A stretch of DNA of 36,920 bases, taken from positions 1 through 36,920 of IMG/VR virus record IMGVR_UViG_3300027770_000131, one strand, 5' to 3'. The position numbers and the translations under genes are program-made. The DNA comes from a virus. Below are positions 7,674 to 36,750 of the stretch, in pieces (the first letter of the stretch is position 1; every line of letters starts with the position of its first letter). The notes below the pieces were generated by a model that saw only the letters and a list, made by a program, of their open reading frames with translations, searched no databases and had not been told where the DNA came from.

Positions 7674-9080
7674 ATGGTAATTAGAACATTTTTCGACAAA
7701 AATAATACCATAGTTAGAAATGAAGTTGTTAATACAGCCAGAAATCCTGTAACTGAGTTGTTTTACGGTGGACCTTCTGGTGAAAACAAATATAGCCGTT
7801 ATTTATTTCATTTTGATGAAACTAGATTGGTCAACATGTATGATAATGGTACATTTACTGATTTAACCAAACTAAAACACACATTAAAACTAACTAATAC
7901 AGCATCATTTGATGAAGGCCTTTTAAACGGCTCATACCAATCAAAAGATAGGGCATGTTCATTTGATTTAATTGTTTTTAGAGTTAATCAAGAATGGGAT
8001 GAAGGTGTTGGTTATGATTATCTATCTTGTAATCTATTAACTGGCGATTGTGCAATATCAACAAAACCATCAACTTGGGTTAATCCACAAACTGGTATCT
8101 TCTGGACTGGTGGTTCTGGCGTTTACTCAGGTACACCTAGTGGTATAACAATAGCAACTCAGCATTTTGATTTGGGTAATGAAAACATGGAAGTAGATAT
8201 TACGAATTATGTTAATGGTGTTATAACTGGTAATACAAATAATGGATTGGGTATAGCGTATGCACTACCATATGAATTAACAAGTACACAAAATCTACAA
8301 TACGTTGGGTTTTTTACCAAATATACCCAAACATTTTACGAACCATATATTGAAACGGTATATAGCAATCACATAACTGACGATAGAAACAATTTCTTCC
8401 TAGATAAACCAAATAAACTTTATCTATATGTTAATTTAGCTGGAAACCCAACAAATTTGGATACATTACCAGCCGTAACAATATTTGACGAAAACGGTTC
8501 AATATATAGTGTTTATAATTCATCTGAAGTTGAACATGTAACTAAAGGCGTTTATTCAATAGACATAAATATTCCAACAGGTGATGGCGAAATAGGTACT
8601 CTATTCAATGATGTTTGGGAAGACTTAGTGATTAATGGTATTTCTAGACCAGACGCTAGTCTTTATTTCGAATTAAAAGATAGCTTTGGTTACTATAACC
8701 TCGGGGATAGCGATTCATTACCACAAAAAGTTGCTGTATCGATATCTGGCGTTAGAAACCAAGAAAAAATAAAAAGGGGTGACATTAGAAAAGTGATTGT
8801 ATCTACCAGAATACCATATACAGTAGAACAAACACAAAACATATCAAATATACAATATAGATTATATGTAACTGAAGGTAAAAATGAACTAACTGTAGTT
8901 GATTTTCAACCTGTTGAACTAGCATCTAATTATAATTATTTTTTATTAGACACCCTAAGTCTAATTCCAAATGTATATTATTTAGACATACTAGTTGAAT
9001 CTAATTTAGAAGTAACAACGTTAAAAAATATTTTAAATTTTACTGTTGTTAGCGAATCAAACCTAAGACAATCACAATAA
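7674..9080 (+). CDS. Tail/baseplate protein with DNRLRE-like beta-sandwich domain
   Basis: This 468-residue protein is almost entirely beta. The N-terminal ~220 residues (SRYLFHFDETRLVNMY; HTLKLTNTASFDEG; FDLIVFRVNQEWDEGVGYDY; MEVDITNYVNGVITG) follow the pattern of DNRLRE-type jelly-roll domains, which are common in surface and adhesive proteins of Bacteroidota. About 200 further residues contain Ig-like strands (KLYLYVNLAGNPTN; VYSIDINIPTGDGEIGTLFN; YYLDILVESNLEV). Position after the baseplate hub gene and its own candidate late promoter suggest a structural or receptor-contacting tail component. The stop overlaps the next ATG by one base. No enzymatic motif was found. Confidence 0.7.
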   Translation: MVIRTFFDKNNTIVRNEVVNTARNPVTELFYGGPSGENKYSRYLFHFDETRLVNMYDNGTFTDLTKLKHTLKLTNTASFDEGLLNGSYQSKDRACSFDLIVFRVNQEWDEGVGYDYLSCNLLTGDCAISTKPSTWVNPQTGIFWTGGSGVYSGTPSGITIATQHFDLGNENMEVDITNYVNGVITGNTNNGLGIAYALPYELTSTQNLQYVGFFTKYTQTFYEPYIETVYSNHITDDRNNFFLDKPNKLYLYVNLAGNPTNLDTLPAVTIFDENGSIYSVYNSSEVEHVTKGVYSIDINIPTGDGEIGTLFNDVWEDLVINGISRPDASLYFELKDSFGYYNLGDSDSLPQKVAVSISGVRNQEKIKRGDIRKVIVSTRIPYTVEQTQNISNIQYRLYVTEGKNELTVVDFQPVELASNYNYFLLDTLSLIPNVYYLDILVESNLEVTTLKNILNFTVVSESNLRQSQ

Positions 9081-9412
9081 TGAAACAATTTATAAAAGAA
9101 AACCTAAGACTTAATACCGTTATAACTGAAGAAGTTATTGATGGGCAAGAAATGAATGCTGGAACACAATCTTTATGTAATACAATGAGTGTAAAGAGCT
9201 ATCATGAAGTTTTGGGTAGAATCATTGCAGCTATTGGACACCCAGAAGAAAACCATGAATTATGGGCTAAGATAAAAAAACCCCTAGATATGCTTGAAAA
9301 AGCTAGTAAAAATTTAAATAAAGAAAAAAAAGAAATTGGTATGACAGGTGATTCAGAAGTAGACGAAGCAAATACTTGGTGGGCTGCAATACAATCAACA
9401 ATTTGTAAATAA
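9080..9412 (+). CDS. Small protein with capsid-targeting-like N-terminus
   Basis: This 110-residue protein starts at an ATG overlapping the previous stop by one base. The first 17 residues, MKQFIKENLRLNTVITE, match the module seen at other start points in this window (MK-x-[F/L]-I-[K/R]-x-x-L-R) and end in I-T-E before E18, a possible prohead-protease site. The rest is helical with two cysteines and a conserved-looking NTWWAAIQSTIC end. I infer, without proof, that it may be packaged in the head and processed. The region around it is tail/lysis, so another role is possible. Confidence 0.6.
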   Translation: MKQFIKENLRLNTVITEEVIDGQEMNAGTQSLCNTMSVKSYHEVLGRIIAAIGHPEENHELWAKIKKPLDMLEKASKNLNKEKKEIGMTGDSEVDEANTWWAAIQSTICK

Positions 9413-9417
9413 ATTAT

Positions 9418-9801: not shown

Positions 9802-9818
9802 AACAGCTAATAATTAAC

Positions 9819-9848
9819 TTGACATTTTTTTCTTTTTTATTATATTTA
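9819..9848 (+). promoter_or_regulatory. Bacteroidota-type promoter of the zinc-ribbon gene
   Basis: TTGACA (9819-9824) is followed, 19 bases after its TTG, by TATATTTA (9841-9848), close to TAnnTTTG. This is the -33/-7 arrangement of Bacteroidota primary-sigma promoters. The same region also contains TATTTATTT (9843-9851), a variant of the candidate late box, so the unit may be read by both polymerase forms. Transcription would begin around 9855, giving a leader of about 95 bases. Confidence 0.6.
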
Positions 9849-10786: not shown

Positions 10787-10788
10787 TA

Positions 10789-11553
10789 TTAATTTTTCAT
10801 ATTTTTACCTAGTAGACCTTCTCTGTACATTCTAAGCTTTAATTCTTTACGCCATTTAGCTTTTGTTTCACCAGTAAATTTATTATTAACACTCATTAAC
10901 GATGGTGACAAATCTAACATGTCTTGAAATGTCATTTCATTCCACTTATCTTTATATTTGTTATATACTTGTTTTACATTATGAATTTGAGCTTGAATTT
11001 CCATTTTTGTTGCGTCCACTGGTATACCACCTAAACTAGTTGTATTACGCTCCCTTGCCTTATCAACTCTAGCTTCAATATGTTTATTATTTAATGTGTC
11101 ATCAATCCAATGTGCTAACTCATGGTGAATACTACCTTTAATTCTAGCTTCAGTAAATTCTTTAATCATAGTTTTTTGTTGCCTCTCATCATTTAAATGC
11201 TTCAATGCTGTTTCTATATTACCATTGGCATTATTTATAACAAAATCATAAGCATTTTTAGAATAACCAATACCAATTATTTTATTTTTTGGGTTATAGA
11301 AATTAAGACCTGGGTTTATTTTTATAACGCATGGGTTTAATTCATGACATTTAATTGAATCTGGGGATGTTAAAATTGATGTGTCAATTTCAAGTTTTGG
11401 GAACATAGCAGTTGTTACAAACCCAGTTCTTTCAATAGCGTCAACATCATCTTTAAAATATCTATCATACAACAAATCAACATCTGTATCAACATCTGTT
11501 AATTTTTCAGATAAAATACCTTCACGCAATAATTTTCTAATCAGTAATTTCAT
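10789..11553 (-). CDS. HExxH putative zinc metallopeptidase, possible internal head protein
   Basis: This 254-residue protein has a zinc-peptidase core at residues 139-150 (KGSIHHELAHWI), with H144, E145 and H148 as predicted zinc/catalytic residues. E185 (ATKMEIQAQI) is a candidate third ligand, as in gluzincin-type enzymes. The start MKLLIRKLLREGILSEKL resembles a capsid-targeting module and contains L-R-E/G at 9-12 and L-S-E/K at 14-17, possible prohead-protease cuts. The ATG is only three bases from the candidate late box (11556-11564), so if that box is a promoter the leader is extremely short. It is transcribed after the capsid gene and its terminator. It could be an anti-restriction or host-modifying peptidase, or a structural protein with a vestigial site. 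Substrate unknown. Confidence 0.75.
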   Translation of the reverse strand: MKLLIRKLLREGILSEKLTDVDTDVDLLYDRYFKDDVDAIERTGFVTTAMFPKLEIDTSILTSPDSIKCHELNPCVIKINPGLNFYNPKNKIIGIGYSKNAYDFVINNANGNIETALKHLNDERQQKTMIKEFTEARIKGSIHHELAHWIDDTLNNKHIEARVDKARERNTTSLGGIPVDATKMEIQAQIHNVKQVYNKYKDKWNEMTFQDMLDLSPSLMSVNNKFTGETKAKWRKELKLRMYREGLLGKNMKN

Positions 11554-11626: not shown

Positions 11627-13495
11627 TTATCTTAATTCTGCTACGTTAAATGTAGGAATACCATCAACTCTTACGTGACCGTAGAATCTGTTATTCACTG
11701 ACTTCTTAGCGTAACGAGTCATGATACCTTTAACTGGAGCAAAGTTAAATGGATTGTACATGGTTGGGGTTAATTGCAACGGCACGTATGGTGCGTAGAT
11801 ATAACCTGTATCCAACAATGACTTACCTTTATGTCCAATAACTACAGAGTATGCTGGAGAATACGGGTCACGATAAACTTGATATCTACCGCCTAATGTA
11901 CCGATTCTTTCAATACCCATGTTATATTGGTCTTGCTCAGGATTAGCATCACTTACGTGGAAATATTCTAAATCATCGAATACTGCAGATACTTCTGAAG
12001 ATACAACGATAAAGTTAGCACCACCACGAAGAGTTGACTTGTGGATTTGAGCAGAAATTTGGTTAACTTTAGTAATTAAAGTTTGGTTCCAATCTTTCTG
12101 TGTGTAAGGACTAGCAGCGTTAGCAGAAGCTTTTCTCCAACCGTTATAATCCCAACGTAATTGCCATGCAGCAACTTTACGCAAATCTCTCAAGATTTCT
12201 CTATCGATTTCCGCAGCAACTTGCTCAGATAACATTGCTGTTAATTCAGCTTCAGCATCGATGTTGTGGAATGCACTAACGTCTTGCGCCAATTCTGGAG
12301 ACCAAGTAGCTCTTAATTTTCTTTCTTCTACAGAAACTACAACGTCAGTTAAAGTGAAAGAAACTTCACCCATTTCAGTTTCAAGTTCCAATGTAGAGTA
12401 TTCAGCCCATGCAGCAGTAAATGCAGAGAATGATGCTAATGTAGTTGCAGACGCACCGATGTAACCATCAAATGTAGCCGTACCAGCAAAAGCAGAACCA
12501 GATGCAGTTGTACCAATTGGGTGAGTTAAATCAAGACCCAAGAAGATATAACCAACGTTATTAGTTAAATCAGTTGTAGTATTATATTGTACGATACCTT
12601 GACCATATACCTGTGTAATAACACGGAAAGGAATAGCTCTATTAGCAGCAACAATAACGTTACCTGCGCTATCTAAGATATTATTAGGTGTAGTAACTTG
12701 CAAAGACGCTAAGAAAGATTCTGTATCCATTGGGTTACCATCAGGACCAGTTAAAATAGCTTTGTTAGAATTACCACCTGTGAAACCAGATACAGCAACA
12801 ACTAATTGTCTTAATGAACCGTCAGCAGCAACTGGACCTACAGTAGATGCAGTACTAGTAGCCACACGTGTGTATGAACCATCACCATTACCAGAAAAAA
12901 CTGGAACGTTAGGCATAGTACGAATAGTTAATGTACCTTTTGAGTTATCAAACAAACCATCATCATAGAATAAATCATAAAGATTTTTAGCTAAGAATGG
13001 AGTTACAGCGCAAGTACCAGCAGCTGGTAATACGCAACTAGGAATACCAGAAGATGCAAAGCTAGTTTGAGCTGAGTAAATTGGTGGATTTAAATACACA
13101 TCAGAACCAGGTTGGTTAGCTGTATAGTTATTACCAGGATTTCCAGCAGCATCTACACGGCTAGATGTTTGAGGTACAAAATAGAACAATTTACCAATTG
13201 GCATGTTCATAGCTTGTACAGACACGATGTCGTTAGCTAATAATTTAGAGAATACTCTTCTCACGATAGGGAATACAACAGTTTCGAATGAACCTGAAGA
13301 GTATGAAGTTGTTGATTCAGTTAATAATGAAGAAGCTTGGTTCTCATATAATTGAGCGATGTTTTCTTTTACGTGTCCTTTAAGACCTTCAAGAAAACCT
13401 AAGCTTTCCCATTTTGCTTGGGTTTCTTTACGGATAGCCTTCATGTGGTTTAATCCGATGTTCCCAACTTGTCCAGATGTTAATAAATGTGACAT
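11627..13495 (-). CDS. 23: Major capsid protein precursor, T4 gp23-like
   Basis: This 622-residue protein is about 100 longer than T4 gp23 (521). Conserved HK97-fold T4-family segments are visible: VFPIVRRVFSKLLANDIVSV then QAMNMPIGKLFYFVP (residues about 73-108), corresponding to the gp23 VRR..P.L...D..GVQPM..P.G stretch. AELTAMLSEQVAAEIDREIL lies in the C-terminal half, and a SSEVSAVFDDLEYF region follows. Residues 1-60 are a helical propeptide ending SSLLTE before S61, which closely matches the gp21 cleavage site of gp23 (FLTE/A). The extra length lies in a Gly/Ala/Ser/Thr-rich beta region (about 110-390), perhaps a surface-exposed insertion domain. A terminator follows, and the scaffold gene lies 22 bases upstream. 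Confidence 0.95.
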   Translation of the reverse strand: MSHLLTSGQVGNIGLNHMKAIRKETQAKWESLGFLEGLKGHVKENIAQLYENQASSLLTESTTSYSSGSFETVVFPIVRRVFSKLLANDIVSVQAMNMPIGKLFYFVPQTSSRVDAAGNPGNNYTANQPGSDVYLNPPIYSAQTSFASSGIPSCVLPAAGTCAVTPFLAKNLYDLFYDDGLFDNSKGTLTIRTMPNVPVFSGNGDGSYTRVATSTASTVGPVAADGSLRQLVVAVSGFTGGNSNKAILTGPDGNPMDTESFLASLQVTTPNNILDSAGNVIVAANRAIPFRVITQVYGQGIVQYNTTTDLTNNVGYIFLGLDLTHPIGTTASGSAFAGTATFDGYIGASATTLASFSAFTAAWAEYSTLELETEMGEVSFTLTDVVVSVEERKLRATWSPELAQDVSAFHNIDAEAELTAMLSEQVAAEIDREILRDLRKVAAWQLRWDYNGWRKASANAASPYTQKDWNQTLITKVNQISAQIHKSTLRGGANFIVVSSEVSAVFDDLEYFHVSDANPEQDQYNMGIERIGTLGGRYQVYRDPYSPAYSVVIGHKGKSLLDTGYIYAPYVPLQLTPTMYNPFNFAPVKGIMTRYAKKSVNNRFYGHVRVDGIPTFNVAELR

Positions 13496-13517: not shown

Positions 13518-14819
13518 TTAATATTTATCTTTATTTTCAACTCTATTAATCAAATCTTTAATTCTTTGAGTTGAAGGGTCAACATACGCAGTAGCTTCGT
13601 TTAATTGTTTTGAGCTACTTGTTGCAACCTCTTTGATTATTTTACTACCGATTGATTCGTTAACTGGCTTTCTGCTAGATAATTCGTTAATGATAGTTTT
13701 GTATAACTTTTTAGATTCTTTAAGGTTAGTTACTTCCTCATCAAATCTTTGAATTATTTTTTTCTTTTCTTCTTTAGTAGTAGAATGTTCCATGAATAAC
13801 TTAGTTACGTAACTTAAATTTGAATTGAAAACTACAGTTTCTACTAACATGCCTCTGAATTTCTTAAGAGCTTTTCTAAAGTCTTCATTTTCGGCTTTTA
13901 ATTGTGTTGCTTCGTTTAACAATTTCTTGTACTTAACCTCAGCTTCGATGATAACATTTTTAGAAGATACAGATTCAGATTGAACACCTTGAAATTTAGC
14001 ACCTTGTTTAGCGCCAGGACCTTTAATTTTAGTTAAATTACCACCAGCTAAATTTTGTTGAACTCTATTTTTAGCTTCGAATTCTTCTAGGTTAGCACTT
14101 TCTTCAGCATCTTCGTCTTCTTCTTTCACGATTTCTTCATCATCTTCTTCTTTTTCTTCATCTTCCATCACTGTTGAATCTTTATCCATAGCTATTTCAT
14201 AAGTTAATCCTTCTTCTTCATAGCCTTCTTCCATACTATCCCATCCTTCTTCCATATACTCTTCATTTGTTTCATCCATAGATTCGTACATAGATTCGTC
14301 CATTCCAAGTGCACCTTTTTTAACGATGTACTCTCCTGGTTCTGAGATATTAAGGTGGATTTCATCACCAACAATTTCGATTTCATCATCACCACTCAAT
14401 TTCTTGTAAATAGCGATAACGTCATCATCCGATGCGTCAGTCATATCCAAATCATCTCCTGCTAGTGCGTCATCTGCACCCATTCCCATTTCTTGGTCGT
14501 CTTCTGGACCAACTTCTGGAGATTCTTCGTCTTCTTCATCAGATTCGTCGCCTCCGATTTCAATATCAGTCTCATCACCTTCGATATCCCCTTCCTCACC
14601 TTCAGGTGATTCAGTTTCATCTCCAGATTCAGGACCTTCAATTTCATCTTCAACGGCTTCTTCTTCGTAACCACCTTCTTCAAGTGATTCTTTCACCAGA
14701 CCATCAATTTCTTCTCTCGCAACGGAGCGAAGTATTTCTTTGGTATTGGCATTTAAAGCTTCTTGGATAACTTTGATATCCAAAAGAGCTCCTTCATAAA
14801 TTGATTTTTTTTCAGCCAT
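13518..14819 (-). CDS. 22: Prohead core scaffold protein, gp22-like
   Basis: This protein of 433 residues lies between the protease and capsid genes exactly where T4 has gene 22. The N-terminal 60 residues are helical. Residues about 50-240 are extremely acidic (runs such as EGEEGDIEGDETDIEIGGDE), and the C-terminal 150 residues are a long coiled coil (EVKYKKLLNEATQLKAENED and following). Likely prohead-protease sites are LNE303/A, LNE408/A and IIE/A, in line with gp22 being chopped into peptides at maturation. It is longer than T4 gp22 (269 residues), mostly through the acidic region. The gene has a long leader and a palindromic promoter-like region upstream (14886-14908). Confidence 0.85.
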   Translation of the reverse strand: MAEKKSIYEGALLDIKVIQEALNANTKEILRSVAREEIDGLVKESLEEGGYEEEAVEDEIEGPESGDETESPEGEEGDIEGDETDIEIGGDESDEEDEESPEVGPEDDQEMGMGADDALAGDDLDMTDASDDDVIAIYKKLSGDDEIEIVGDEIHLNISEPGEYIVKKGALGMDESMYESMDETNEEYMEEGWDSMEEGYEEEGLTYEIAMDKDSTVMEDEEKEEDDEEIVKEEDEDAEESANLEEFEAKNRVQQNLAGGNLTKIKGPGAKQGAKFQGVQSESVSSKNVIIEAEVKYKKLLNEATQLKAENEDFRKALKKFRGMLVETVVFNSNLSYVTKLFMEHSTTKEEKKKIIQRFDEEVTNLKESKKLYKTIINELSSRKPVNESIGSKIIKEVATSSSKQLNEATAYVDPSTQRIKDLINRVENKDKY

Positions 14820-14943: not shown

Positions 14944-15633
14944 TTAATCGATTAAGAATTTATCTAAGCCCTCATTAAGATTTGGCTTTTTAATAATTCT
15001 GTTCTCAACATATGGTTTTGCTTCTTCTTTGTTTTTAAACATCCAAGAACCTGGAGTACTAGGTGCGGTAACAACGTCCCAACATATTAATTCAAAGTCG
15101 TCTTGAACAATAAAATCACCCTTGATTTCTTTTAAAGAACCAACACCCCTAGACGATACACCAATCATGATATTGTTTCTTAATAAATTTGCAACTTCAT
15201 CACCCTTTGTTGATACGATACCGTAGTTTATATAACCCTTGGTCATTAAGATTTCCATCTTACCCATCAAGGTTTTTCCTTCCCACCATGTTTGTATAAT
15301 ATTATGAGATACTCTATCACCAGCAATAACACTAGATTCAGGATGGTCTAATTCACCAATCGCTCTTCTTTCTCTAATTGCTTGTTGATAAATTTCGTTT
15401 TGTGTTTTAAGTATTTCTTCAGGATATATTCTTCCGTTTCTATTTTTTACACCGTACTTTTGAAGTACAACATAAACAACTAGGCTATCTGGACTATCTT
15501 GACCTAAATCTAGTTTTTTAAACTCCCTAATTAAGGATTGATTTTTAGGGTCGCTAGGGGATATAAATCCAGCATCATGCTCAATTAAATAACCAAATCC
15601 AGCTTGCCCAGCTTTTACTAATGTTAAATCCAT
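14944..15633 (-). CDS. 21: Prohead maturation serine protease, gp21-like (family S77)
   Basis: This 229-residue protein is close in length to T4 gp21 (212). The catalytic pattern of the herpes/T4 prohead protease group is visible: His97 in RAIGELDHPESSVIAG, the serine in IMIGVSSRGVGS (S160/S161), and an acidic residue in CWDVVTAPS (about D186). It should cleave scaffold, capsid propeptide and internal proteins after [L/I]-x-E during head maturation. Its own C-terminus has NLNE221/G222, a likely self-cleavage site. It has its own candidate promoter (15649-15657) after the terminator of the upstream unit and lies directly before the scaffold and capsid genes, the classic T4 order 21-22-23. Confidence 0.93.
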   Translation of the reverse strand: MDLTLVKAGQAGFGYLIEHDAGFISPSDPKNQSLIREFKKLDLGQDSPDSLVVYVVLQKYGVKNRNGRIYPEEILKTQNEIYQQAIRERRAIGELDHPESSVIAGDRVSHNIIQTWWEGKTLMGKMEILMTKGYINYGIVSTKGDEVANLLRNNIMIGVSSRGVGSLKEIKGDFIVQDDFELICWDVVTAPSTPGSWMFKNKEEAKPYVENRIIKKPNLNEGLDKFLID

Positions 15634-16974: not shown

Positions 16975-17754
16975 TTAATTATCTATTAAGTTATTTTTTA
17001 ATTCCATGAGTTTAGAAATCTTCTCTAGAAATATTTCATTATCAATTTCTTGCTCTTCTAATAGTTTACCCTTAACTTTTAATAATTTTTCTTTTGATTC
17101 ACCTGTCTCCTCGCTAATTAATTTATCCACAATTTTAATACATTCATTAACTTCTGTTTGATAAAACTCTTTTTTTGCGTCAAGACTTGGGCTCATTAAA
17201 ACTTTAATCACTTTTTTATCCGAATCAGTCAAAGTAGCATATTTTTCATTGTATTTTTCAACCATTAATTTTGAAATCATACTTAATGGTAAATCAAAAC
17301 TCTCATTGACTTCTTTTGGTTTGTTTGCTAAAATATAATCAGTTATTTTTTTTACTTCTGTCGTTACTGTTTCAATATTCTGGGGTGTTTTATTGATAAA
17401 TGTCAATTTTGTAATTGATTCATGCAGGTTCAATAAATCATAGCTATCACTAATATTAAAATTGACTTTTTTTAACATTGAAGTTAATTTTGTGTTTTCT
17501 TTTAATATGTCTTTCTGACTATATTTCTCTAATAATCTTAAGTTTTCTGAAACAAAAGAAAAAACAGATAACGAATCGTCGCTTATTTTGTTTTCTATAT
17601 TACTATAAATTAAAAATTGCGTTCTTAATATTTCACTTTCTTTAATTGCTTTAATATATTGTTTAAACAATTTTTTAGTCTTTTCGTCTTTTTTTGCAAT
17701 CGCTTCAACTAGTAAATTATTGAACGTATTTTTAATTTTACCAAAATTTTGCAT
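16975..17754 (-). CDS. Helical protein, candidate prohead core protein
   Basis: The 259 residues are almost all helical and rich in Lys/Glu/Leu, without membrane segments. The N-terminus, MQNFGKIKNTFNNLLVEAIA, has L-V-E17/A18, a possible prohead-protease site, and resembles the targeting modules of other head proteins here. It is transcribed immediately after the portal gene, where T4 has the small core genes 67 and 68 between 20 and 21. A prohead core or internal protein is therefore a reasonable inference, although there is no clear sequence similarity that I can point to. Confidence 0.6.
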   Translation of the reverse strand: MQNFGKIKNTFNNLLVEAIAKKDEKTKKLFKQYIKAIKESEILRTQFLIYSNIENKISDDSLSVFSFVSENLRLLEKYSQKDILKENTKLTSMLKKVNFNISDSYDLLNLHESITKLTFINKTPQNIETVTTEVKKITDYILANKPKEVNESFDLPLSMISKLMVEKYNEKYATLTDSDKKVIKVLMSPSLDAKKEFYQTEVNECIKIVDKLISEETGESKEKLLKVKGKLLEEQEIDNEIFLEKISKLMELKNNLIDN

Positions 17755-17806: not shown

Positions 17807-19861
17807 TTATTTCAACATATCATCAATATCATTAATCATAGTGTTAATACCTTCATTTATTTTTATATTTTTATTATAAATTTTAGTATTTTCTATTGGT
17901 TTTGGTTCGTTATCAACCATATCAATTAATTTGTTAATAAATAATCCTTTATATTTTTCGGACCTTTCGTTTAATTTATTTTGAATTTTTTTCTTCTCTT
18001 CAACTAATAAATTATCAATTTTTTTAATTTCTTCGGCTGTTGTTTCAGCAGCTGTTTCTTCCGCACCAGCAACTTCACCAGCAGCCGCTGCCTCACCACC
18101 TGCTTCAGTAGCTGCTGCTGATTCTTCACCTTCAGCACCAGCTTCAGCACCACCCTCACCACCACTAAAATCTAAATCGGTTTCAGTTGTACCACCACCA
18201 CCAAATCCACCACCTAATCCAGACGTGCTACCACCACCGCCGCCTCCACCTGCAGGGGCTGCACCACCATCAGCTGCCGCGCCACCGCCACCTTCCATTG
18301 CAGCATCAATATCACCGTAAATTCTATCAACAGTATCAAACATACCTGTATGTTTAATAACTTGTGCTGTGTTTGCAATTTCAGCAGCTGCCGCTTTTTC
18401 CATTCTTTGTTCAAGAAGGTCTTGTTTAATATCATCATCAGACCATCCAAGAATTTCTCTTTTAGCTCTTGTCATTGACATAGCACCAAAACCATTACCA
18501 GCATCAGATACTGCATCTTTGTACAACGTAACTTTTAATTGTGTGTGTTCAACTTTAAGCATTTCAGCTTGTGTTGATGGATTATTTAATGTTAATGTAA
18601 AGTTATCTAAATCATCTTCAAAACCTAATACATACAAATGAATAATTACAATTTTATTTAATTCCTGTAACATTGCTTGTTGTATTCTGTTAACAGTTCT
18701 AGAAAATCTAATATCTTGAAGTGCAAGATTTTTACCATCGCCAGTTGTTTCATCAAAACCTAAAAATGGTTTTGGAACTCTTAACGCAGTAAATAATTTT
18801 TTCTGTAAGTATTCAATATCCGCAATCTGGTCTAGATTTGCAGCACCTGGTAATGTATCGATTGGATTAGGTGCGTCTTCACTTCTTACAGGAATAAAAT
18901 AATCTTGGTCGTTTGACAATTGATTATATCTCAAATCAATCTGACCTGTTGCTGGGTCAACAATTGGTGCTCTTTTAAATCTATTGGCTATTTCATTTAC
19001 GTATGCTTCAACATCTTTATCATCAATATTACCAACATAGATTTTATATATTCTTCTTTCTGGTGCTCTGGTAACACGATAAACCAACATAGCATCTTCA
19101 GAAAGAATTAATTGTTTCCAAATTCTTCTAGCCTTTTCTAAAACAGATGTACCGTATGGTAATCTTCTATCATCGCCTAATAATCTAAAGTGAGCCATTT
19201 GCCAAGAATTAAACTCAACATCACGGCCTCTCCAATAAAATTTAACCTTATCTGTTATATAATTTTCGTCTGTTTTTTGAGTTAACATATCGAACAAACC
19301 ACCATCACGTCTTTCCATTTCATAGTTTGGCATTTGTTTAACACTAACAACACCATTCTTATCATCGATATTAAGGTAGACAAAATTATCACCGTACTTA
19401 CAAGTATTTCTTGTCCACATGGGTAAAGATGTATGTATATCTAATCTGTTAAACAACAAATCTTCAACAATGGTTTTAACTCTTTTGCTTTCAGAATAAA
19501 CATTAATCATTCTACCATTAGAATTTAATGTTGTTGATTCTTCCATCATAATATCTAAAGCGGCCGCTATTTCTGGATAAAATTCCATAGCTTCAAAATC
19601 TGAATACGAACCAATTCTAGTTGTTTCATAATTTACAGCTTGTTGAAATAAGCCTGTCTCAACTTTTTTCCATACTTGACCTAAGTATCTATTTTGTTGT
19701 GCTTGTAATTTTGCAATCTCAAATTCCTGCTTATCAGTTGTTTTTAATAAAACATCTTTATTGATATTAAATCTTTGAGGTGCGGGTTCATTAACTTTAA
19801 ACCCATCAGGCCCTAATATTTTGCCTAATTTCTGAAATATGGTTAAATTATTTTTTGCCAT
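17807..19861 (-). CDS. 20: Portal vertex protein, gp20-like, with Gly/Ala-rich C-terminal extension
   Basis: Residues 1 to about 520 follow T4 gp20 (524 residues): YSDFEAMEFYPEIAAALDIM, then NTCKYGDNFVYLNID, LPYGTSVLEKARRIWKQLIL, YRVTRAPERRIYKIYVGNID and EDDLDNFTLTLNNPS. It forms the dodecameric DNA channel at the head vertex. After the normal end comes a tract at about residues 522-610 made of Gly, Ala, Glu and Thr, including a run of seven glycines, then about 75 residues of helix with INE670/G671 close to the C-terminus, a possible prohead-protease site. The local GC-richness of this tract contrasts with the AT-rich surroundings. The terminase lies just upstream and the core-protein candidate downstream. 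Confidence 0.93.
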   Translation of the reverse strand: MAKNNLTIFQKLGKILGPDGFKVNEPAPQRFNINKDVLLKTTDKQEFEIAKLQAQQNRYLGQVWKKVETGLFQQAVNYETTRIGSYSDFEAMEFYPEIAAALDIMMEESTTLNSNGRMINVYSESKRVKTIVEDLLFNRLDIHTSLPMWTRNTCKYGDNFVYLNIDDKNGVVSVKQMPNYEMERRDGGLFDMLTQKTDENYITDKVKFYWRGRDVEFNSWQMAHFRLLGDDRRLPYGTSVLEKARRIWKQLILSEDAMLVYRVTRAPERRIYKIYVGNIDDKDVEAYVNEIANRFKRAPIVDPATGQIDLRYNQLSNDQDYFIPVRSEDAPNPIDTLPGAANLDQIADIEYLQKKLFTALRVPKPFLGFDETTGDGKNLALQDIRFSRTVNRIQQAMLQELNKIVIIHLYVLGFEDDLDNFTLTLNNPSTQAEMLKVEHTQLKVTLYKDAVSDAGNGFGAMSMTRAKREILGWSDDDIKQDLLEQRMEKAAAAEIANTAQVIKHTGMFDTVDRIYGDIDAAMEGGGGAAADGGAAPAGGGGGGGSTSGLGGGFGGGGTTETDLDFSGGEGGAEAGAEGEESAAATEAGGEAAAAGEVAGAEETAAETTAEEIKKIDNLLVEEKKKIQNKLNERSEKYKGLFINKLIDMVDNEPKPIENTKIYNKNIKINEGINTMINDIDDMLK

Positions 19862-23116: not shown

Positions 23117-24325
23117 TTATAAAAATTCGTCAAAATTATCTCCGTTTTCTTCCCAATCATCCCCCATGTTTAATTCGTTTATTGCCTGATTAAACTCATC
23201 TTCTTGTAACCCTCGCTTAACACCATGTAATATTTCATCAATAACTTTTTGCCCTCTTTTAGTACCTGCCATAATCTCCCTCATTTGATTATGAAATTCT
23301 TTTGCTGGTAATGAAGCTAATTCAGAATATATATGATGTTTTAAACCAAAATCATCGGCAGGTATTTTGTCAGTAAATTTACCCCAAACAGCTGGACCTA
23401 ATCTCATATCCCATGGCTCTGCTGCTAAGAAATCTGCTTTATTAACAACATAGTTTGCCATATTTTTATCTTTTGGTAAACCATGTGCTGATAACAATTC
23501 CATAACACCCTTAACAATTTCATGAATTAATACAGGGAATACCATAGCTTGTGCATGTATTTTAGCTTTAGGGTTTTGTTCAGTTGGAAATTCAACCCTA
23601 ACAACACCACCGTTAACTTGATTATCCATTTTAGGGATAACATAATACATATAATCAGCAGCTGACATCATCTTGTTATACTTATTCGGTAATCTAGGGT
23701 CCATATCAGTTAATTCATCATCAACCATATGAAACATGTGATTACATTTTTTAGCAGCACCTTGTCCCATAGCATTTAAAAACCTTCTCTTATAAACTTC
23801 ATCAGTTGCATTGACCATGTCATCGTGTGACTCAAATTCCATACCCTCAACAGGCATTGGTTTTGGGTTTTTCTTAGTACCTTCTATATTAATATTAGGC
23901 GTCAACTCGGCAACAATTTCAACAGCGTCTTCACCCATATTATACTCTTCTCTAATCATTTTAATTGCCAATTCTTCAAGGGCTTTTTTGTGCTTAGATT
24001 CTAACCCAATAGTTTCATAAACAATTGGCATCATTTCTGTCATAACCTTTTGGTTATCTATGTTTTCAACGTCAAATGCTCTTTTATAACGCTTACAAAC
24101 TTCATTAAAACGCTCACCTAAAGCCTTTTCCTCAAAAGACGATTCATCCCCTTCTGGAAATGCTGGATGTTTACCTAAAGAGTGTCTTTGATTAACTAAA
24201 TCATCTTCTAAAGTTGGGTGCATCCTTTCAGTTAGTCCCTCTGGATACATTACACCTTCATTTAATACTTTTTTTTGCGTTGATTTAGCCAATGCTTTTT
24301 CTGCTAATTTTTTAAATTCGCTCAT
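23117..24325 (-). CDS. Putative internal head/structural protein
   Basis: This protein of 402 residues has no recognised domain. It starts MSEFKKLAEKALAKSTQKKV followed by LNE23/G24, fitting a removable N-terminal targeting peptide cut by the prohead protease. The middle is helical with many Met residues. It contains MVFPVLIHEIVKGVMELLSA, which looks like a metallopeptidase helix but lacks the second zinc His (HEIVK rather than HExxH). The C-terminus is acidic (MGDDWEENGDNFDEFL). It is last in a tight operon with four other large unusual proteins. I infer a packaged or scaffolding-associated protein. Confidence 0.65.
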   Translation of the reverse strand: MSEFKKLAEKALAKSTQKKVLNEGVMYPEGLTERMHPTLEDDLVNQRHSLGKHPAFPEGDESSFEEKALGERFNEVCKRYKRAFDVENIDNQKVMTEMMPIVYETIGLESKHKKALEELAIKMIREEYNMGEDAVEIVAELTPNINIEGTKKNPKPMPVEGMEFESHDDMVNATDEVYKRRFLNAMGQGAAKKCNHMFHMVDDELTDMDPRLPNKYNKMMSAADYMYYVIPKMDNQVNGGVVRVEFPTEQNPKAKIHAQAMVFPVLIHEIVKGVMELLSAHGLPKDKNMANYVVNKADFLAAEPWDMRLGPAVWGKFTDKIPADDFGLKHHIYSELASLPAKEFHNQMREIMAGTKRGQKVIDEILHGVKRGLQEDEFNQAINELNMGDDWEENGDNFDEFL

Positions 24326-25782: not shown

Positions 25783-27998
25783 TACCCTACATACATGTTT
25801 AATTCATATGTACCCCCATCCATTCTATAGATTTGAGCATGTAAATATTTATTTCTTTTAGGTATGCCACCTATACTTAATTGTTTTTCAATTCTTCTTG
25901 TTGTACCATAAGCAACATGCTCAATTTCAGGCATATCAAACTCAATTGGGTCATACCCTCTTGCTTCAACATGCTTTCTTATTGCTTCTAATGTAGAGGC
26001 TAATGTCTTATGATACGTTTCAAAATCAGGAAATTTACCTTCTGTTATAGCTTTAGGGTCTGTTTTGATTCCTGGGGCAACTTCTGGTAAAAATGGTTTA
26101 TTTTTTCTACTTGGTTGAGCAGGCTTGTTTGGTTCTGTTGTTCTTGGTTTTGTTTCAGGTACCAATGGTTTTGTTGTTGGTTGTGTCATATTTTCATTTT
26201 TAACAAAGATACGACTATTTTCATCAAAACCAAAATTTTCCCCAACTATTTTAGAAACTGGTTTTTTAGACCACATTCTACAAGACCAATATTTAGGACT
26301 TGTTCTATCTTTAGCTTGAGAACATTTGTGTCTAGCCCTAAATGATTTTCTTCTTTTTGGGTTATCACGCTTGATTTCCATCTTCTTATCACCAAAGTTA
26401 ACTTTTACAACATTACCCTTGGCATTTTTAACATAAACTTTAAATTTCTTAACATCACCATGCGTTGGTTTACCCAGCGTTACTTTTTTACCTTTGTATT
26501 TGGCTTCATTCATCATAGGCATACCATCTTCAACGCTACCATGCTCATCTTCATAACCAACTTGGGTATCACCATCATAAGAATCTGGCTCATGCTCACC
26601 TAAATTAGCATTTAAAAAATGATATACTTCTTCAATATCATCTGCTGATGTTGCTAAATGGTCTGTAGCCCAGTTATGACCATCAGATAATAATTGGTCA
26701 ACAGCTTGTGGGTCCATTTGAAGCATTTCGTCAATTGCGTCTTTGATTGTTTTTAAGTTATTAAAGAACATATAGTTTTGGAATTCACCATGTCCTTCTT
26801 CTACAATTTCGTGTAATTTTTGTTTGATTAAGTTTTTCATACTTTTTTCGTTTAAATTGTCTGTTTTAAATTTAATTAAATCTTCTTTATCTAATATTTT
26901 GGCTGGTATTTTATCCAATCCCAAATTCAAAGCTTTTTCTAATCTATGTGTACCATCTAACATAGCAAATATTTTATTATTTTCATTTTTAACAACTATA
27001 ATAGGGTACGATAAATCAGCATTCATAACTCTTTTATTAGTTTCAAGAGGGTCTTCTTGTCTGCCGCTAAAATCATAATTAATTTCACTAGGTCTTAACT
27101 CTCTTACTGGCTTATCTTTAGCTAAATCAATAATATCACTAACTTTAAATTTTATTTTAAATTCAGTACCATCAGAAAATTTTTCATTTGTATCCCAAAC
27201 ACCAGCAATTTTATCTATCGATTCTTTAACAACATTTTCATTATGACTTTTTTTACCCCATTTTTTACCTTTGCCTCTTGTACCGCAAGAAGCTGGCGTA
27301 GGTCTACAAGCTGGATATTTTCTTTTTTCTCCATCTTGTCTACCACATGGTTTACATTTTTTTCTACCTGTTTCTGGGTCTTTTCTACATGTGTTACAAT
27401 CTACCCAACCGCTACTGCCACCACCACCTCTTCTAGCAAACCAACCATGTAACCCTTGTGATTTTTCTCTTGAATAATCAGTTTTTTTAGCTTCGTCTAA
27501 ATCTGCGGTAAATAACCCACCAGTACTTTCTAAATATTTTACAATCCACGCACCTAATTCTTGTGCATCTGGTGCATATTCCTTACCTTTTATTCTAGTA
27601 ATATTTTGATGCGCCATATTAACCATTTTTTTTGAAAACGCATCCAAATCAACAACCCAAACTGTTGGGTCAATTCCATAGTATATTAACCCAGACAAAC
27701 GGGTATTACCACCAAGCAAATCATAATCATTATCAGCAAACTTTACAACAATTGGTAACTCTACTTTACCTGAAGTATAAGCTTTCCAAAACCTATCTTG
27801 TTTATCTGTGTTTAAGTTATCAAAATCCAAATCAACATTACCCAATACATCTTTAATTTTTGAATACTTAGTAGTATAACCTTGCCCAGCAACGTCATAC
27901 CAATTTTTTATCCCCATTTGCTTAAATTCAGGATAACGAATAGCTTCTTCCCATTCGTCTTGAAAATTAGGTTTAGTATATATTATTTCTTTACTCAT
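25782..27998 (-). CDS. Large modular protein: two ParB-like domains, DUF5872-like Cys module, and internal head-protein modules
   Basis: In order across 738 residues: a ParB/sulfiredoxin-like fold around 80-125 with DLLGGNTRLSGLIYYGID; a Cys/basic module (181-250) with GWVDCNTCRKD, KCKPCGRQDGEKRKYPACRP and TPASCGT, resembling DUF5872 of giant viruses and phages; a second ParB-like domain (about 300-372) with MLDGTHRLEKALNLGLDKIP; then LNE384/K followed by Met387, MKNLIKQKLHEIVEEGH, a targeting-like module normally found at N-termini; MNE498/A; a second basic Cys/Trp module at 504-576 (KKFKVYVKNAKGNVVKVNF; KSFRARHKCSQ; PKYWSCRMW); a Pro-rich linker; ITE/G; and an alpha/beta C-terminal domain. 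The spaced [L/M]-N-E sites suggest a polyprotein cut during head maturation. DNA binding is likely for the Cys modules but unproven. Confidence 0.7.
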   Translation of the reverse strand: MSKEIIYTKPNFQDEWEEAIRYPEFKQMGIKNWYDVAGQGYTTKYSKIKDVLGNVDLDFDNLNTDKQDRFWKAYTSGKVELPIVVKFADNDYDLLGGNTRLSGLIYYGIDPTVWVVDLDAFSKKMVNMAHQNITRIKGKEYAPDAQELGAWIVKYLESTGGLFTADLDEAKKTDYSREKSQGLHGWFARRGGGGSSGWVDCNTCRKDPETGRKKCKPCGRQDGEKRKYPACRPTPASCGTRGKGKKWGKKSHNENVVKESIDKIAGVWDTNEKFSDGTEFKIKFKVSDIIDLAKDKPVRELRPSEINYDFSGRQEDPLETNKRVMNADLSYPIIVVKNENNKIFAMLDGTHRLEKALNLGLDKIPAKILDKEDLIKFKTDNLNEKSMKNLIKQKLHEIVEEGHGEFQNYMFFNNLKTIKDAIDEMLQMDPQAVDQLLSDGHNWATDHLATSADDIEEVYHFLNANLGEHEPDSYDGDTQVGYEDEHGSVEDGMPMMNEAKYKGKKVTLGKPTHGDVKKFKVYVKNAKGNVVKVNFGDKKMEIKRDNPKRRKSFRARHKCSQAKDRTSPKYWSCRMWSKKPVSKIVGENFGFDENSRIFVKNENMTQPTTKPLVPETKPRTTEPNKPAQPSRKNKPFLPEVAPGIKTDPKAITEGKFPDFETYHKTLASTLEAIRKHVEARGYDPIEFDMPEIEHVAYGTTRRIEKQLSIGGIPKRNKYLHAQIYRMDGGTYELNMYVG

Positions 27999-29363: not shown

Positions 29364-30599
29364 TTAGATTTTTTTTTTACTTCTAGACTCTTGTAACTCA
29401 TCAATCATCTCGTCCATCATTGACATTGCTCTTTCAATTGATAATTTACCTTCTTTTTTAGTTGCACCTGCGATTTTATCCGCATAAGTAATTTCATCTT
29501 TTGGTTCAGCTAAAGCAGCAAATTGCTTTTCTTTATCTGTCATTTCATCCTCTACTTCCATCATCCCGTTAATAGTAGCCATTTCTGGCATTAAATCTTC
29601 ACCTTCGTATTGATATTTACCCTCAGCCCTATCTGCGCACGCATCACATTGATAACCCAAATGAACATCGGCAGCAGTTAAGGCATTTGGTCTATTACAA
29701 GTAGGACATGGATATTCTCTATTTCCAGCTCTAAGTGCACTATTACCTCCTGGGTCAGCAAATTCTATTTCATCCTCATCATAATAGTCATCATCATATT
29801 CCATCATTCCATGAACAGCAGCCATTTCTGGCATTAAATCTTCACTTTCATTGTCTAATTTTACACCTCTACCCTTTAAAATATCAGCGTATGTAACTTT
29901 ACCGTCACCATTTAAATCTGGAAATTCTTTTTCATCCATCATACCCATACCTTCATTTTTCTCAAATGTTTCTGGGTCACGGTCTTGTTTATTAGCTGTA
30001 GCGTAATAAACTTTTTCACCTTTTTCAGGGCCATATTGTTTTTTCATGCTAGCCATAGTTGATTTGTCATACTCTTCCATTCCGCCACCATATGCTGGTC
30101 CACCACATTCTAGGCACATACCTTCCATAACTTGTCCACCGCAACATTCGCTCATCATATGTCCTTCCATATTACCTTCTGGTTTAAACCCAGAACCCAT
30201 GCTTTCAAAAGCGGCATAGTCTTCAGTTAAAAGTTTATCATCTAAGAAAACATTAACTTGTCCAGATTTACCATAAGCCTCATTAAGGCTATGGAACTTA
30301 AGATTTAAATGCTTAATAGCTTTAGCATAAGAAGGATATACTTCTTGTTTCTTATTTTGAAGCCCACCCATGTATTGGAAATCTTCAACAACAAGATTGT
30401 TTTGCTTTTTTGTAATCTTAATATAATATTCGTGATTTTCTCTTACGATACCGTAAACATTACCATCTGGTCCTTTTTTTGTTAATTCAACAACCGATGT
30501 TTTTTTGTTTTCATTAATGGTTTTAATCCCCATTAACTCTTTCATGCGCTCGGTTACTTGATAACCTTTAAGCCCAACTGGATTTATTTTTTCGTTCAT
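29364..30599 (-). CDS. Putative internal head protein with zinc knuckles and EF-hand loop
   Basis: This protein of 411 residues is first in the operon. It contains possible prohead-protease sites INE30/N, LNE107/A and LTE126/D. Two cysteine clusters could bind zinc: ECCGGQVMEGMCLECGG (C152, C153, C162, C165) and YPCPTCNRP...YQCDACA (C298, C301, C318, C321), the latter a C-x2-C-x16-C-x2-C ribbon. Between them is DLNGDGKVTYADI (228-240), a dockerin/EF-hand-type calcium loop. A 15-residue phrase, EDLMPEMAAVHGMME, is nearly repeated at 334-348. The C-terminus RSKKKI ends in an A10 slippery tract. It is preceded by a good candidate late box. No enzyme signature is seen. Confidence 0.7.
   Translation of the reverse strand: MNEKINPVGLKGYQVTERMKELMGIKTINENKKTSVVELTKKGPDGNVYGIVRENHEYYIKITKKQNNLVVEDFQYMGGLQNKKQEVYPSYAKAIKHLNLKFHSLNEAYGKSGQVNVFLDDKLLTEDYAAFESMGSGFKPEGNMEGHMMSECCGGQVMEGMCLECGGPAYGGGMEEYDKSTMASMKKQYGPEKGEKVYYATANKQDRDPETFEKNEGMGMMDEKEFPDLNGDGKVTYADILKGRGVKLDNESEDLMPEMAAVHGMMEYDDDYYDEDEIEFADPGGNSALRAGNREYPCPTCNRPNALTAADVHLGYQCDACADRAEGKYQYEGEDLMPEMATINGMMEVEDEMTDKEKQFAALAEPKDEITYADKIAGATKKEGKLSIERAMSMMDEMIDELQESRSKKKI
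29369..29378 (-). other. A10 homopolymer / candidate -1 frameshift site
   Basis: On the - strand ten A residues read AGT AAA AAA AAA ATC TAA in the upstream frame. Slipping back one base on A AAA AAA enters the open frame of the next ORF, which has no ATG. It could be programmed frameshifting, a real indel, or a homopolymer sequencing error. Confidence 0.5.
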
Positions 30600-32577: not shown

Positions 32578-32608
32578 TTGACAAGTTTCAAAATAAAATG
32601 TATATTTG
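32578..32608 (+). promoter_or_regulatory. Bacteroidota-type promoter, rightward
   Basis: TTGACA (32578-32583) is followed, 20 bases after its TTG, by TATATTTG (32601-32608), an exact TAnnTTTG. The Clp ATG is 16 bases further, so the leader is very short. Confidence 0.8.
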
Positions 32609-32623
32609 CTAAAAGTTTGCATA

Positions 32624-35143: not shown

Positions 35144-35150
35144 TAATTAG

Positions 35151-35170
35151 AACCCACATTTTTGTGGGTT
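35151..35170 (+). terminator. Intrinsic terminator after the Clp gene
   Basis: AACCCACA (35151-35158) / TGTGGGTT (35163-35170) forms an eight-base stem with a TTTT loop, then TTATT. The next gene's candidate promoter follows at once. Confidence 0.85.
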
Positions 35171-35176
35171 TTATTA

Positions 35177-35185
35177 TATTTATTT
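35177..35185 (+). promoter_or_regulatory. Candidate phage late promoter box
   Basis: TTATATTTATTTGATATG places TATTTATTT only three bases before the ATG at 35189, after the Clp terminator. The short spacing resembles that of the HExxH gene at 11553. Confidence 0.45.
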
Positions 35186-35188
35186 GAT

Positions 35189-35581
35189 ATGAAAAAGTCA
35201 TTACTAAAAGAACATTTATTTGACAAAAATTCTGAACCACAACTAAAGCTGTTAAAATTATTCCTTAATTTTACTTGTAAGTTTTTAGGTATTAAATGCC
35301 CAAAAATACATTTAAAGTTTAATAGGGATGGATTAGTAACAACAGCAAGTTACAGCAAAGATGCTGTCGCTATATATGCCAAAGAAAGAGCACTGGTTGA
35401 TATAATGAGGTCAATAGCTCATGAATTAGTACACTTAAAACAAGATACCGAAGGTAGACTAGAACAAAGTGAACACGATAAAAACAATGAAGCTGGCTCC
35501 CCAATTGAAAATGAGGCAAATTCAGTTGCTGGACAAATAATAAGAAAATTTGGTGAAGAACACCCAGAAATATATAAATAA
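35189..35581 (+). CDS. Small HExxH putative metallopeptidase
   Basis: The ATG at 35189 (MKKSLLKEHLFDKNSE) is preferred over the in-frame start at 35162, which lies inside the terminator stem. The product has 130 residues. The zinc motif is SIAHELVHLKQD (H78, E79, H82), and E109 in IENEANSVAGQII is the likely third ligand, the usual arrangement of small phage gluzincin-like proteins. The N-terminus has L-K-E/H (6-9), a possible but weak prohead-protease site. The stop overlaps the ATG of the SprT-like gene by one base, so the two HExxH proteins are coupled. The catalytic core is small and the substrate unknown. Confidence 0.78.
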   Translation: MKKSLLKEHLFDKNSEPQLKLLKLFLNFTCKFLGIKCPKIHLKFNRDGLVTTASYSKDAVAIYAKERALVDIMRSIAHELVHLKQDTEGRLEQSEHDKNNEAGSPIENEANSVAGQIIRKFGEEHPEIYK

Positions 35582-36750
35582 TGAATAGAGAAGAACTTAT
35601 AGCAAAAGCTAGGGATATTGTTAATCAAGATGTTGTTAAAGGATTTACAGCAGATTTTTTAAAAATGGCAGCTAACGATACCGTTAATCCAACAAGATTT
35701 GAAACATATTTAAAAAATATCTCTGAACAAGCTTGGGACCCAGGCACCGAAGAAAATACTATCTTTACATATAGTCAAGAATTGGTTGATATCGTAAAAG
35801 AATTATTCCCAAAAAATCCCGATTATCCATATCTGCAAGAAAGCAGATTAAATAATGTCAAAAAAGGAAATACAAAAATTAAAAAAAAAATCGAAAAAGG
35901 TCCTAATGAAATGAAAACATTCATTAAAAGCTTACTACGCGAATCTACAATAAACGAAGGTAGAGAACACACCGATGACGAAATTGTAGATTTTAATGAG
36001 ATTGACCTTCAACAAGAATACAATAAGTTAAATCAGCTACTATTTAAGGGTAATCTTCAACCTGTAACAATGTTATGGAATAAAAGAAAAGGAGCACATG
36101 GTATTGTTAAGGGTACTAGAAGTAGAAGTACAGGTAAAATAACCCTCAAATCTCTTAGCATGTCCCAATTCCTTAAAGTACCATATAGGTTCTTTAAAGA
36201 TGTCTTGGCACATGAAATGATTCACGTATTCTGGATGCAACAAGATGTCAATGCTAAACATGGTCCTTTGTTTGTTCAACAAATGAATAGAATTAATTCC
36301 ATGGGTCTAGGGTTTAACGTCAGCGTAAAATCCGACTCATCTGAAACTTCTAAATTTGAAATGTCTTCAGATGTTGTAAAACAAGGAATGGAATTAGTAT
36401 TTGTTCTTTTACAAACTGATAGAGAGAAAAATATGTTATCAGTAATGAAATACGATACATATAAATTACAAGGTTATAGAGTTGCTGATATATATAATCA
36501 CTTAGTTAATAAAACCCCAAAATACAGAACAGCAAGCGGAGAATTTTACTTATCAACAAACCCAAAACTACAAGCACAAAAAATACAAAGAGCATTTGGT
36601 GGCGGTGGTATTAGCTATATTAGAATAAATGATGAAATAGCTAATTCATTAAAACAAGATGCTAAATTCTTAAGTAGTTTTGATATCGAATCCAATGGTC
36701 CTAACTGGGAAGGACCTGATAAACCTAGAATTCCACTTATAGACATTTGA
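35581..36750 (+). CDS. SprT-like zinc metallopeptidase with internal capsid-targeting-like module
   Basis: The 389 residues fall into three parts. Residues 1-110 are a helical domain ending in a Lys-rich stretch encoded by an A10 tract. Residues 111-127 (MKTFIKSLLRESTINEG) are a copy of the targeting module, with INE126/G127 as likely prohead-protease site. Residues 135 onward are an SprT-like domain: DLQQEYNKLNQLLFKGNLQP, the zinc motif LAHEMIHVFW (H211, E212, H215) and NAKHGPLF (H227), typical for SprT/Spartan proteins, which act on DNA-bound or other proteins. The C-terminal 150 residues are alpha/beta, without a recognised zinc ribbon. Translation may also start at Met111 (35911). A change of one base in the A10 tract would split this into two genes. 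Confidence 0.8.
   Translation: MNREELIAKARDIVNQDVVKGFTADFLKMAANDTVNPTRFETYLKNISEQAWDPGTEENTIFTYSQELVDIVKELFPKNPDYPYLQESRLNNVKKGNTKIKKKIEKGPNEMKTFIKSLLRESTINEGREHTDDEIVDFNEIDLQQEYNKLNQLLFKGNLQPVTMLWNKRKGAHGIVKGTRSRSTGKITLKSLSMSQFLKVPYRFFKDVLAHEMIHVFWMQQDVNAKHGPLFVQQMNRINSMGLGFNVSVKSDSSETSKFEMSSDVVKQGMELVFVLLQTDREKNMLSVMKYDTYKLQGYRVADIYNHLVNKTPKYRTASGEFYLSTNPKLQAQKIQRAFGGGGISYIRINDEIANSLKQDAKFLSSFDIESNGPNWEGPDKPRIPLIDI
35881..35890 (+). other. A10 homopolymer at a domain joint
   Basis: Ten A residues fall between the N-terminal domain and the targeting-like module of the SprT-like gene. With nine A the upstream frame would stop at a TGA overlapping the ATG at 35911 (ATGA junction); with eleven it would stop at a nearby TAA. 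Confidence 0.5.

Follow-up and report, generated by a model that had tools for sequence, protein, structure and literature searches.

The window analyzed here is the whole of a 36,920-nt IMG/VR virus record (IMGVR_UViG_3300027770_000131), a contig of a T4-like phage. Its minus strand carries a head cluster made up of TerL, portal, the 16975 gene, an S77 protease, a scaffold-like gene and gp23, arranged like T4 genes 20-67-68-21-22-23 from portal through core gene(s), protease and scaffold to gp23 (Table 1). Large genes of unknown function, including the 24325, 27998 and 30599 genes, lie upstream of TerL. A preliminary description of the window had proposed that short peptide modules resembling T4 capsid-targeting sequences, together with [L/I]-x-E cut sites, mark a large set of proteins packaged in the head. 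All eight cut-like sites and all four modules that it listed are present in the open reading frames (ORFs) at the residues it named. These short modules represent a single recurrent tag, MKx[LIF]IKKLLRE, and the tag's own L-R-E end is an [LI]xE cut motif, which had not been noted. We consider it likely (probability of about 0.7) that the tag is a lineage-specific capsid-targeting sequence (CTS), docked on the prohead core and cut by the phage's own S77 protease.

Conserved cut-type sites in the head genes

We aligned homologues from 80 loci related in the portal, 80 loci related in the 24325 gene and related records; identical rows were removed, and those left are mutually related. At E60 of gp23, [LI]xE was present in 46 of 46 rows, and the residue after the presumed cut (P1′) was A, G or S in 78%. 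In the scaffold-like protein, the motif was kept at E303 (39/41 rows), E368 (38/39) and E408 (37/38). Corresponding values were 45 of 46 rows for E107 of the 30599 gene (A, G or S at P1′ in 96%) and 70 of 79 rows for E17 of the 16975 gene (97%), a site that the preliminary description had not included. The most telling case is the 24325 gene, in which E23 was preceded by L/I-x in all 72 rows, with S, G or A at P1′ in 94%; relatives differ in which residues, and how many, precede the site, yet L/I-x-E stays fixed. By comparison, portal and TerL contain seven conserved [LI]xE columns, none of which has A, G or S at P1′ above 1%.

The site near the C-terminus of the protease (LNE221/G at 14971-14973; the slash marks the presumed cut) seems to move rather than vanish, because its exact column was kept in only 11 of 43 rows but the last 20 residues contained [LI]xE[AGSN] in 38 of 45 homologues, compared with 3.5 after shuffling. 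Among the recurring sites proposed initially, those of the capsid, the scaffold-like protein, the 24325 and 30599 genes and the protease tail stood up in relatives. The portal site INE670 did not (34/78 rows, with K at P1 in 27) and was rejected as a conserved cut site, and INE126 of the SprT-like gene has only three rows behind it. We also left out [LI]xE at residues 20, 48 and 292 of the scaffold-like protein, which is not conserved in relatives, and LKE169 of the protease, which is conserved with A, G or S at P1′ but falls within the part matched by S77 (residues 50-199).

Motif counts gave a similar picture. The six substrate-candidate ORFs of the window contained five [LI]NE[AGS] motifs, compared with 0.34 expected from 1000 shuffles, and all 41 called genes contained seven, compared with 1.5 (500 shuffles). 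In five related records, 31 head-gene homologues of the six candidates had 15 motifs against 1.9 in shuffled sequences, although the head set was picked for its sites in the window and its relatives are only partly independent. The corresponding counts were 42 against 41.4 for 1678 other genes and 3 against 1.7 for 25 portal, TerL and tail genes. These statistics, which the preliminary description had named as a check, favor its proposal. With the looser motif [LI]xE[AGS], the head set had 90 against 33 shuffled and other genes 728 against 617; the observed/shuffled ratios were 2.7 for the head set, 0.9 for portal, TerL and tail genes and 1.2 for other genes. Because this looser motif is slightly over-represented in other genes too, only the head set stands out strongly.

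A recurrent 11-residue tag

The N-termini MKNLIKQLLRENLLSE, MKKFIKKLLREELIDG and MKNIIKTLLRESLLDEG were found on mutually unlike proteins among the gene calls of four related records. We ran a degenerate DNA pattern of the tag on 41 records, comprising 30 portal or 24325 kin, seven records from an earlier pattern scan and four named phages. The pattern matched in 25 of the 30 kin records, with 62 matches, and the reversed pattern matched in none of the 41. In reading these counts, it should be kept in mind that the pattern was shaped in part on G001, G002, G003 and G007, and that G004/G005 and G002/G012 look nearly identical. Matches were most numerous in G002 (306 kb), with eight, and G009 (109 kb), with seven. 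The earlier suggestion that this phage packages more internal proteins than T4 fits in part: one 306-kb record reaches eight tag matches, whereas T4 is described as having such leaders on three internal proteins and Alt (PMC5694885), but several kin records have 0 to 2.

The likeness extends beyond what the patterns impose. The module MK.[FL]I[KR]..L, a pattern written from the examples of the preliminary description, occurred at N-termini six times in G002, twice in G001, once in G003 and not in G004 or G007, compared with <0.02 each in shuffled sequences. K.[FLI]I[KR]..L at residues 2-3 occurred 18 times in five records, compared with 0.15 expected from the rest of the proteome. When residues 10 and 11 were left free in loci that had not been chosen by the tag, MK.[LIFVMY]I[KRQN]..[LIVM] was found 43 times, at 39 ORF starts and four internal positions; R10 was present in 32 and E11 in 31 of the 39 starts, several of which are members of a single ~112-aa family. 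Residue 4 is hydrophobic (partly imposed by the pattern), residue 7 is mostly K, and residues 8 and 9 are L.

A scan of IMG/VR with the tag pattern yielded at least 120 stretches. We retained 141 tagged ORFs (148 found, seven dropped) of 60 to 726 aa, and BLAST of their bodies at 1e-3 gave 56 clusters, an upper bound for the number of families since remote relatives may be split. The modules that had been described as alike are thus a tag common to otherwise unlike proteins, both in the 25 of 30 kin records and across the 56 body clusters. At residue 13, outside the pattern, 50 of the 56 cluster representatives had L, I, F, V or M, and 20 of the 56 carried an additional [LI]xE no later than residue 22, compared with 11.3 in shuffled sequences (p 0.0015).

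The shared start might instead be a DNA-level element, such as a recombination site or a translation signal at the start codon, and the A-rich bases just upstream are somewhat conserved (up to 0.84 bit at one position). The codons of the fixed residues vary, however: L8 was encoded by TTA 35 times, CTA 8, TTG 7, CTT 2 and CTC 1, and R10 by AGA 29 times, AGG 15 and CGN 7, and the third codon position is far less constant than the other two. Because the codons of fixed residues vary in this manner, selection acts on the tag peptide, and we regard a DNA-level explanation as highly improbable.

In the window, the tag occurs both at and away from N-termini, as previously described, with the copies of the 27998 gene (residue 387) and the SprT-like gene (residue 111) being internal (Table 1). 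In the 10789 protein, whose tag is N-terminal, L9, E11 and E16 are invariant in seven homologues. A direct IMG/VR scan with this gene gave no relatives; these were found later in the loci collected for the analysis. In its AlphaFold model, which has a mean predicted local distance difference test (pLDDT) value of 79.5, residues 1-18 lie below 50 and a confident body begins at about residue 20, as would be expected of a leader removable at E11 or E16. A fold search with this model against PDB and viral models gave nothing at E <= 0.001, and the protein's candidate role as a zinc peptidase is read from the HExxH letters only. Three tag-bearing proteins of the window contain HExxH (10789, 35162 and 35581), and a ClpA/ClpB-type ATPase within 32606-36750 adjoins the latter two genes. 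The body of 35162-35581 resembles, as judged by eye, kin proteins starting MKPIIKQLLRE. The gene 35581-36750 has a SprT-like match of 3.1e-11, and the 110-aa part before its tag also precedes a tag in G001, L154.

Table 1. Head genes, putative cleavage sites and tag copies in the window
Feature	Position	Strand	Remarks
S77 prohead protease (T4 gp21 relative), presumed cutter	14944..15633	-	Pfam Peptidase_S77 1.7e-22
Acidic scaffold-like protein, presumed dock, gp22 position	13518..14819	-	Sites E303, E368, E408
Major capsid protein gp23	11627..13495	-	Pfam Gp23 4e-72; LLTE60/S at 13316-13318
259-aa protein, gp67/68 position between portal and protease	16975..17754	-	LVE17/A at 17704-17706
402-aa protein conserved in the clade	23117..24325	-	LNE23/G at 24257-24259, after a length-variable linker
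411-aa protein, function unassigned	29364..30599	-	LNE107/A at 30279-30281
Portal protein	17807..19861	-	Portal_T4 1.7e-75; INE670/G not conserved
N-terminal tag MKLLIRKLLRE of the HExxH protein 10789-11553	11521..11553	-	Second site ILSE16 after it
N-terminal tag variant MKQFIKENLRL of the 110-aa protein 9080-9412	9080..9112	+	Relatives start MKNFIKRLLRE, MKSFIKKLLRE and similar
Internal tag MKTFIKSLLRE (residues 111-121), SprT-like gene 35581-36750	35911..35943	+	Followed by INE126/G
Internal tag MKNLIKQKLHE (residues 387-397), gene 25782-27998	26808..26840	-	..DNLNEKS before it
Degenerate tag-like start MKKSLLKEHLF (from ATG), HExxH gene 35162-35581	35189..35221	+	LKE kept in 12/12 rows

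Among the head proteins themselves, the protease scored 80.4 bits against a Peptidase_S77 cut-off of 27. The scaffold-like protein had no Pfam or PHROG match, and its presumed name comes only from its position before gp23. No family match below 0.01 was found for the 24325 protein in Pfam or PHROG, and its AlphaFold model was too poor for use (mean pLDDT 60.9). Among the matches listed, the closest named portals were those of Microcystis phage Mel-JY01 (40%) and Flavobacterium phage immuto (37%). At the DNA level, the head region matched none of the named phages, and a search of genome contigs for relatives of the 24325 family, made to find the host, confirmed none.

Leaders of named phages and a candidate capsid-targeting role

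In T4, the prohead protease reportedly cuts after L/I-x-E, the first 10 residues of internal protein (IP) III suffice for head entry, and hydrophobic residues 4 and 7 carry the targeting (PMC9026906); IPI, IPII, IPIII and Alt are described as having such leaders (PMC5694885). Of the three T4 IP genes fetched, two, IPII and IPIII, start MKTYQEFIAE/A; the IP genes of T4 are not part of its head operon. The tag pattern had no match in T4, immuto, Mel-JY01, PVA8 or pT24. A homologue of the 10789 protein (27% identity) in Vibrio phage PVA8 (Schizotequatrovirus, Straboviridae) starts in the T4 style, MITFNEHLVE/A, compared with MKLLIRKLLRE/G in the window. Seven further N-termini of named phages were hand-picked, having been found through tagged cargo or beside it. 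Three genes that look like ADP-ribosyltransferase (ART) genes by eye, beside the Mel-JY01 homologue, start MIKLKSLLQE, MIKLKSLLKE and MIKLMSLVTE, and in Tenacibaculum phage pT24 an ART-like gene starts MLGLERYIIE/S and an annotated SprT gene MNITEYLENITE/T. The Mel-JY01 homologue of 10789 itself (MQLNERLYT) and the second ART-like gene of pT24 (MKENLVEKITT) do not fit. Similar cargo thus has different leaders in each lineage, most of them ending in [LI]xE at residues 10-12. These lineage-specific leaders, although few, are the strongest argument that the tag may be a capsid-targeting leader. In immuto (L313-L315, L312), several proteins start with different short leaders that likewise finish in [LI]xE, such as MKKSQLRQIIKEA, MKKLIRIVEAG and MIKLIDLLTES; these are perhaps the CTS of that lineage.

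The T4 leaders also bear on the view that the core sites are real protease substrates but the tag is something separate, for example a degron or a regulatory leader, that resembles a cut site by chance. The core sites are the best supported part of our results, and the S77 family was not found in 15 of 24 records chosen by the tag. Yet the last residues of the tag are this very cut motif, a second motif lies nearby in some tagged proteins, two of the three fetched T4 IP genes start with a leader ending in [LI]xE and the IP genes likewise sit outside the head operon, and contigs without S77 may be incomplete. We therefore think this view quite improbable. Alternatively, the tag could remain uncut and act as an amphipathic helix, with L-R-E as part of it, that brings proteins to a membrane, to a replication compartment or to the ejection machinery. 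A basic peptide with hydrophobic residues at 4, 5, 8, 9 and 13 would suit membrane binding as well, and tagged genes are scattered over the genomes. However, E11, when left free, is as fixed as the helix residues (31/39), homologous cargo has a T4-style [LI]xE leader in an S77-bearing phage, and the 10789 family keeps both E11 and E16. An uncut helix is in our opinion unlikely.

The mechanism that we propose for a CTS builds on the conserved sites, the tag shared by unlike bodies, the co-encoded protease and the low-confidence tag of one structure model. The amphipathic-looking, 11-residue N-terminal tag would dock the attached protein onto the prohead core, with the scaffold-like protein (13518-14819) as the most likely dock. 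After the shell closes, the S77 protease (14944-15633) would cut after L-R-E, and some proteins would be cut again at an [LI]xE a few residues further on. The same protease would trim gp23 at E60, cut the scaffold, trim its own tail and clip the 16975, 24325 and 30599 proteins. The freed cargo would remain in the head and probably enter the host with the DNA.

We found S77 in the window and in all six kin records searched, and in all seven records of another search (named phages including T4, and two of the clade). Several observations nevertheless weigh against the proposed CTS. S77 was found in only 9 of the 24 tag-chosen records, whose contigs are possibly incomplete, and Gp23 in 11 of 24, in three of them only as short ORFs with a gp23 fragment; several records missing S77 or Gp23 are contigs of 120-194 kb. 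Five of the 30 kin records (G006, G018, G026, G028 and G029) had no match to the tag pattern. The tag differs from the T4 CTS in letters and length, and its P1′ residue is often N, E or Q, whereas the core sites have A, G or S. In the window, the copy of the 9080 gene lacks the L-R-E ending, and the start of the 10789 homologue in Mel-JY01 is not recognizable as a clear leader. Moreover, the same substrate proteins hold many conserved [LI]xE columns without A, G or S at P1′, so that the motif alone is not diagnostic. A portal of the window type was present in 9 of 30 tag-chosen records, in one very weakly. Since the contigs may be incomplete, the low recovery of S77, Gp23 and portal does not settle the link, but it is compatible with tags in phages that are built differently.

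Compared with known systems, the closest is the T4 CTS, in which the unlike proteins IPI-III and Alt, cut by gp21, likewise have a short leader ending in L/I-x-E (PMC9026906, PMC5694885, PMC3012670). S77 protease and T4-like head genes are common to both, and T4 has the injected ADP-ribosyltransferase Alt (PMC10468400). The T4 leader MKTYQEFIAE has 10 residues, whereas MKx[LIF]IKKLLRE has 11 and is basic; many more kinds of cargo occur here (56 body clusters over many records), and some tags are internal. In phage P1, the N-terminal part of the defence protein DarB directs it, and a reporter, to the capsid; there, 30 residues were shown to be sufficient, and the available part of that report describes no tag shared by dozens of proteins (PMC9024508). 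phiKZ and SPN3US, large phages with much internal protein, likewise process many of their head proteins after a short motif whose last residue is E (PMC9026906, PMC5694885). The motif is S/A-x-E in phiKZ, however, and the propeptides are mostly longer, reportedly exceeding 100 residues in several SPN3US proteins. Polyvalent proteins have overlapping cargo domains (ART, GNAT, zincin-like peptidases, ParB-like) but are multidomain (PMC5512222), whereas the tagged ORFs here are often short with one tag and include a few fusions. In the available portions of the open-access literature on phage capsid targeting and internal head proteins, we found no description of this tag. What appears to be new is a variant of the T4 system with broad cargo, in T4-like phages known only from environmental DNA.

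Candidate cargo, internal tags and irregular head genes

Pfam families were assigned to one member per cluster; among the 25 of 32 families listed, ART-PolyVal and GNAT occurred three times each, SprT, NUDIX, sulfotransferase, Pterin_4a, GP88, AAA_33 and DUF3990 once each, and there was one weak protein kinase match. In a control of 112 untagged genes (25 of 73 families listed), no ART family was among those listed, and GNAT and GP88 were present. An ART-like regular expression matched 6 of 56 tagged clusters compared with 5 of 1596 untagged genes, and 1 of 14 tagged genes within the same five records; because it was written after the sequences had been viewed, the enrichment is only suggestive. 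Four cargo queries were searched in named phages: three had no match, and one matched two records of pT24. In phages, ARTs, GNATs, zincin-like peptidases and ParB domains reportedly recur in proteins for which packaging or transfer is presumed (PMC5512222), and the T4 ART Alt is an injected protein (PMC10468400).

Nine tag ORFs had at least 30 in-frame residues ahead of the tag, two of which (35 and 37 aa ahead) look like spurious extensions. Four share a domain that is GNAT-like by eye directly before MKPxIKxLLRE; this part ends in ..PKLNEN or ..PKLNET in three and in ..PSMKEN in one. The others are the SprT gene of the window with its G001 relative (..KGPNE), and the 27998 gene of the window. 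This arrangement suggests polyproteins that would be cut on both sides, although internal re-initiation is just as plausible.

A broader reading, to which we give somewhat less than an even chance, is that the tag serves an open address-label system in this T4-like lineage, which includes contigs of up to 368 kb, in which a gene that acquires the tag becomes virion cargo. Heads would then be armed with dozens of early-acting effectors, such as ADP-ribosyltransferases, acetyltransferases, HExxH proteins, NUDIX proteins and others. Some would be polyproteins, in which the upstream domain ends in (L)NE before an internal tag and the protease frees two products. Phage-injected proteins are normally learned one virion at a time. 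If the proposal is true, a readable tag would allow candidate injected effectors, many of them without a named function, to be listed from sequence alone in a large and mostly uncultured group of T4-like phages. It would also provide a second capsid-targeting peptide, with letters unlike those of T4, for packing chosen proteins into phage heads.

Some head genes in the records surveyed were irregular. Small ORFs were found in which an N-terminal domain of ~70-90 aa is joined to a gp23 fragment of roughly 40-60 residues (G002:226610, 278534; G003:133357, 190314; G004:260505, 344956), and short gp23-fragment matches also occurred in G031, G032, G036, G042, G051 and G054. The fragments correspond to the part just behind the propeptide or to profile positions of about 139-206, and the one tested was 45-57% identical to the capsids of RM378, immuto, Mel-JY01 and others. 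Our guess is that these ORFs are capsid decoys or sensors. In addition, two portal ORFs of 1156 aa (G053:52516-55950) and 1088 aa (G046:8323-10638) and two protease ORFs of 628 aa (G040:50212-51849) and 360 aa (G046:940-1857) match their families in separate pieces with no stops, as in-frame inserts in head genes, perhaps inteins, would produce.

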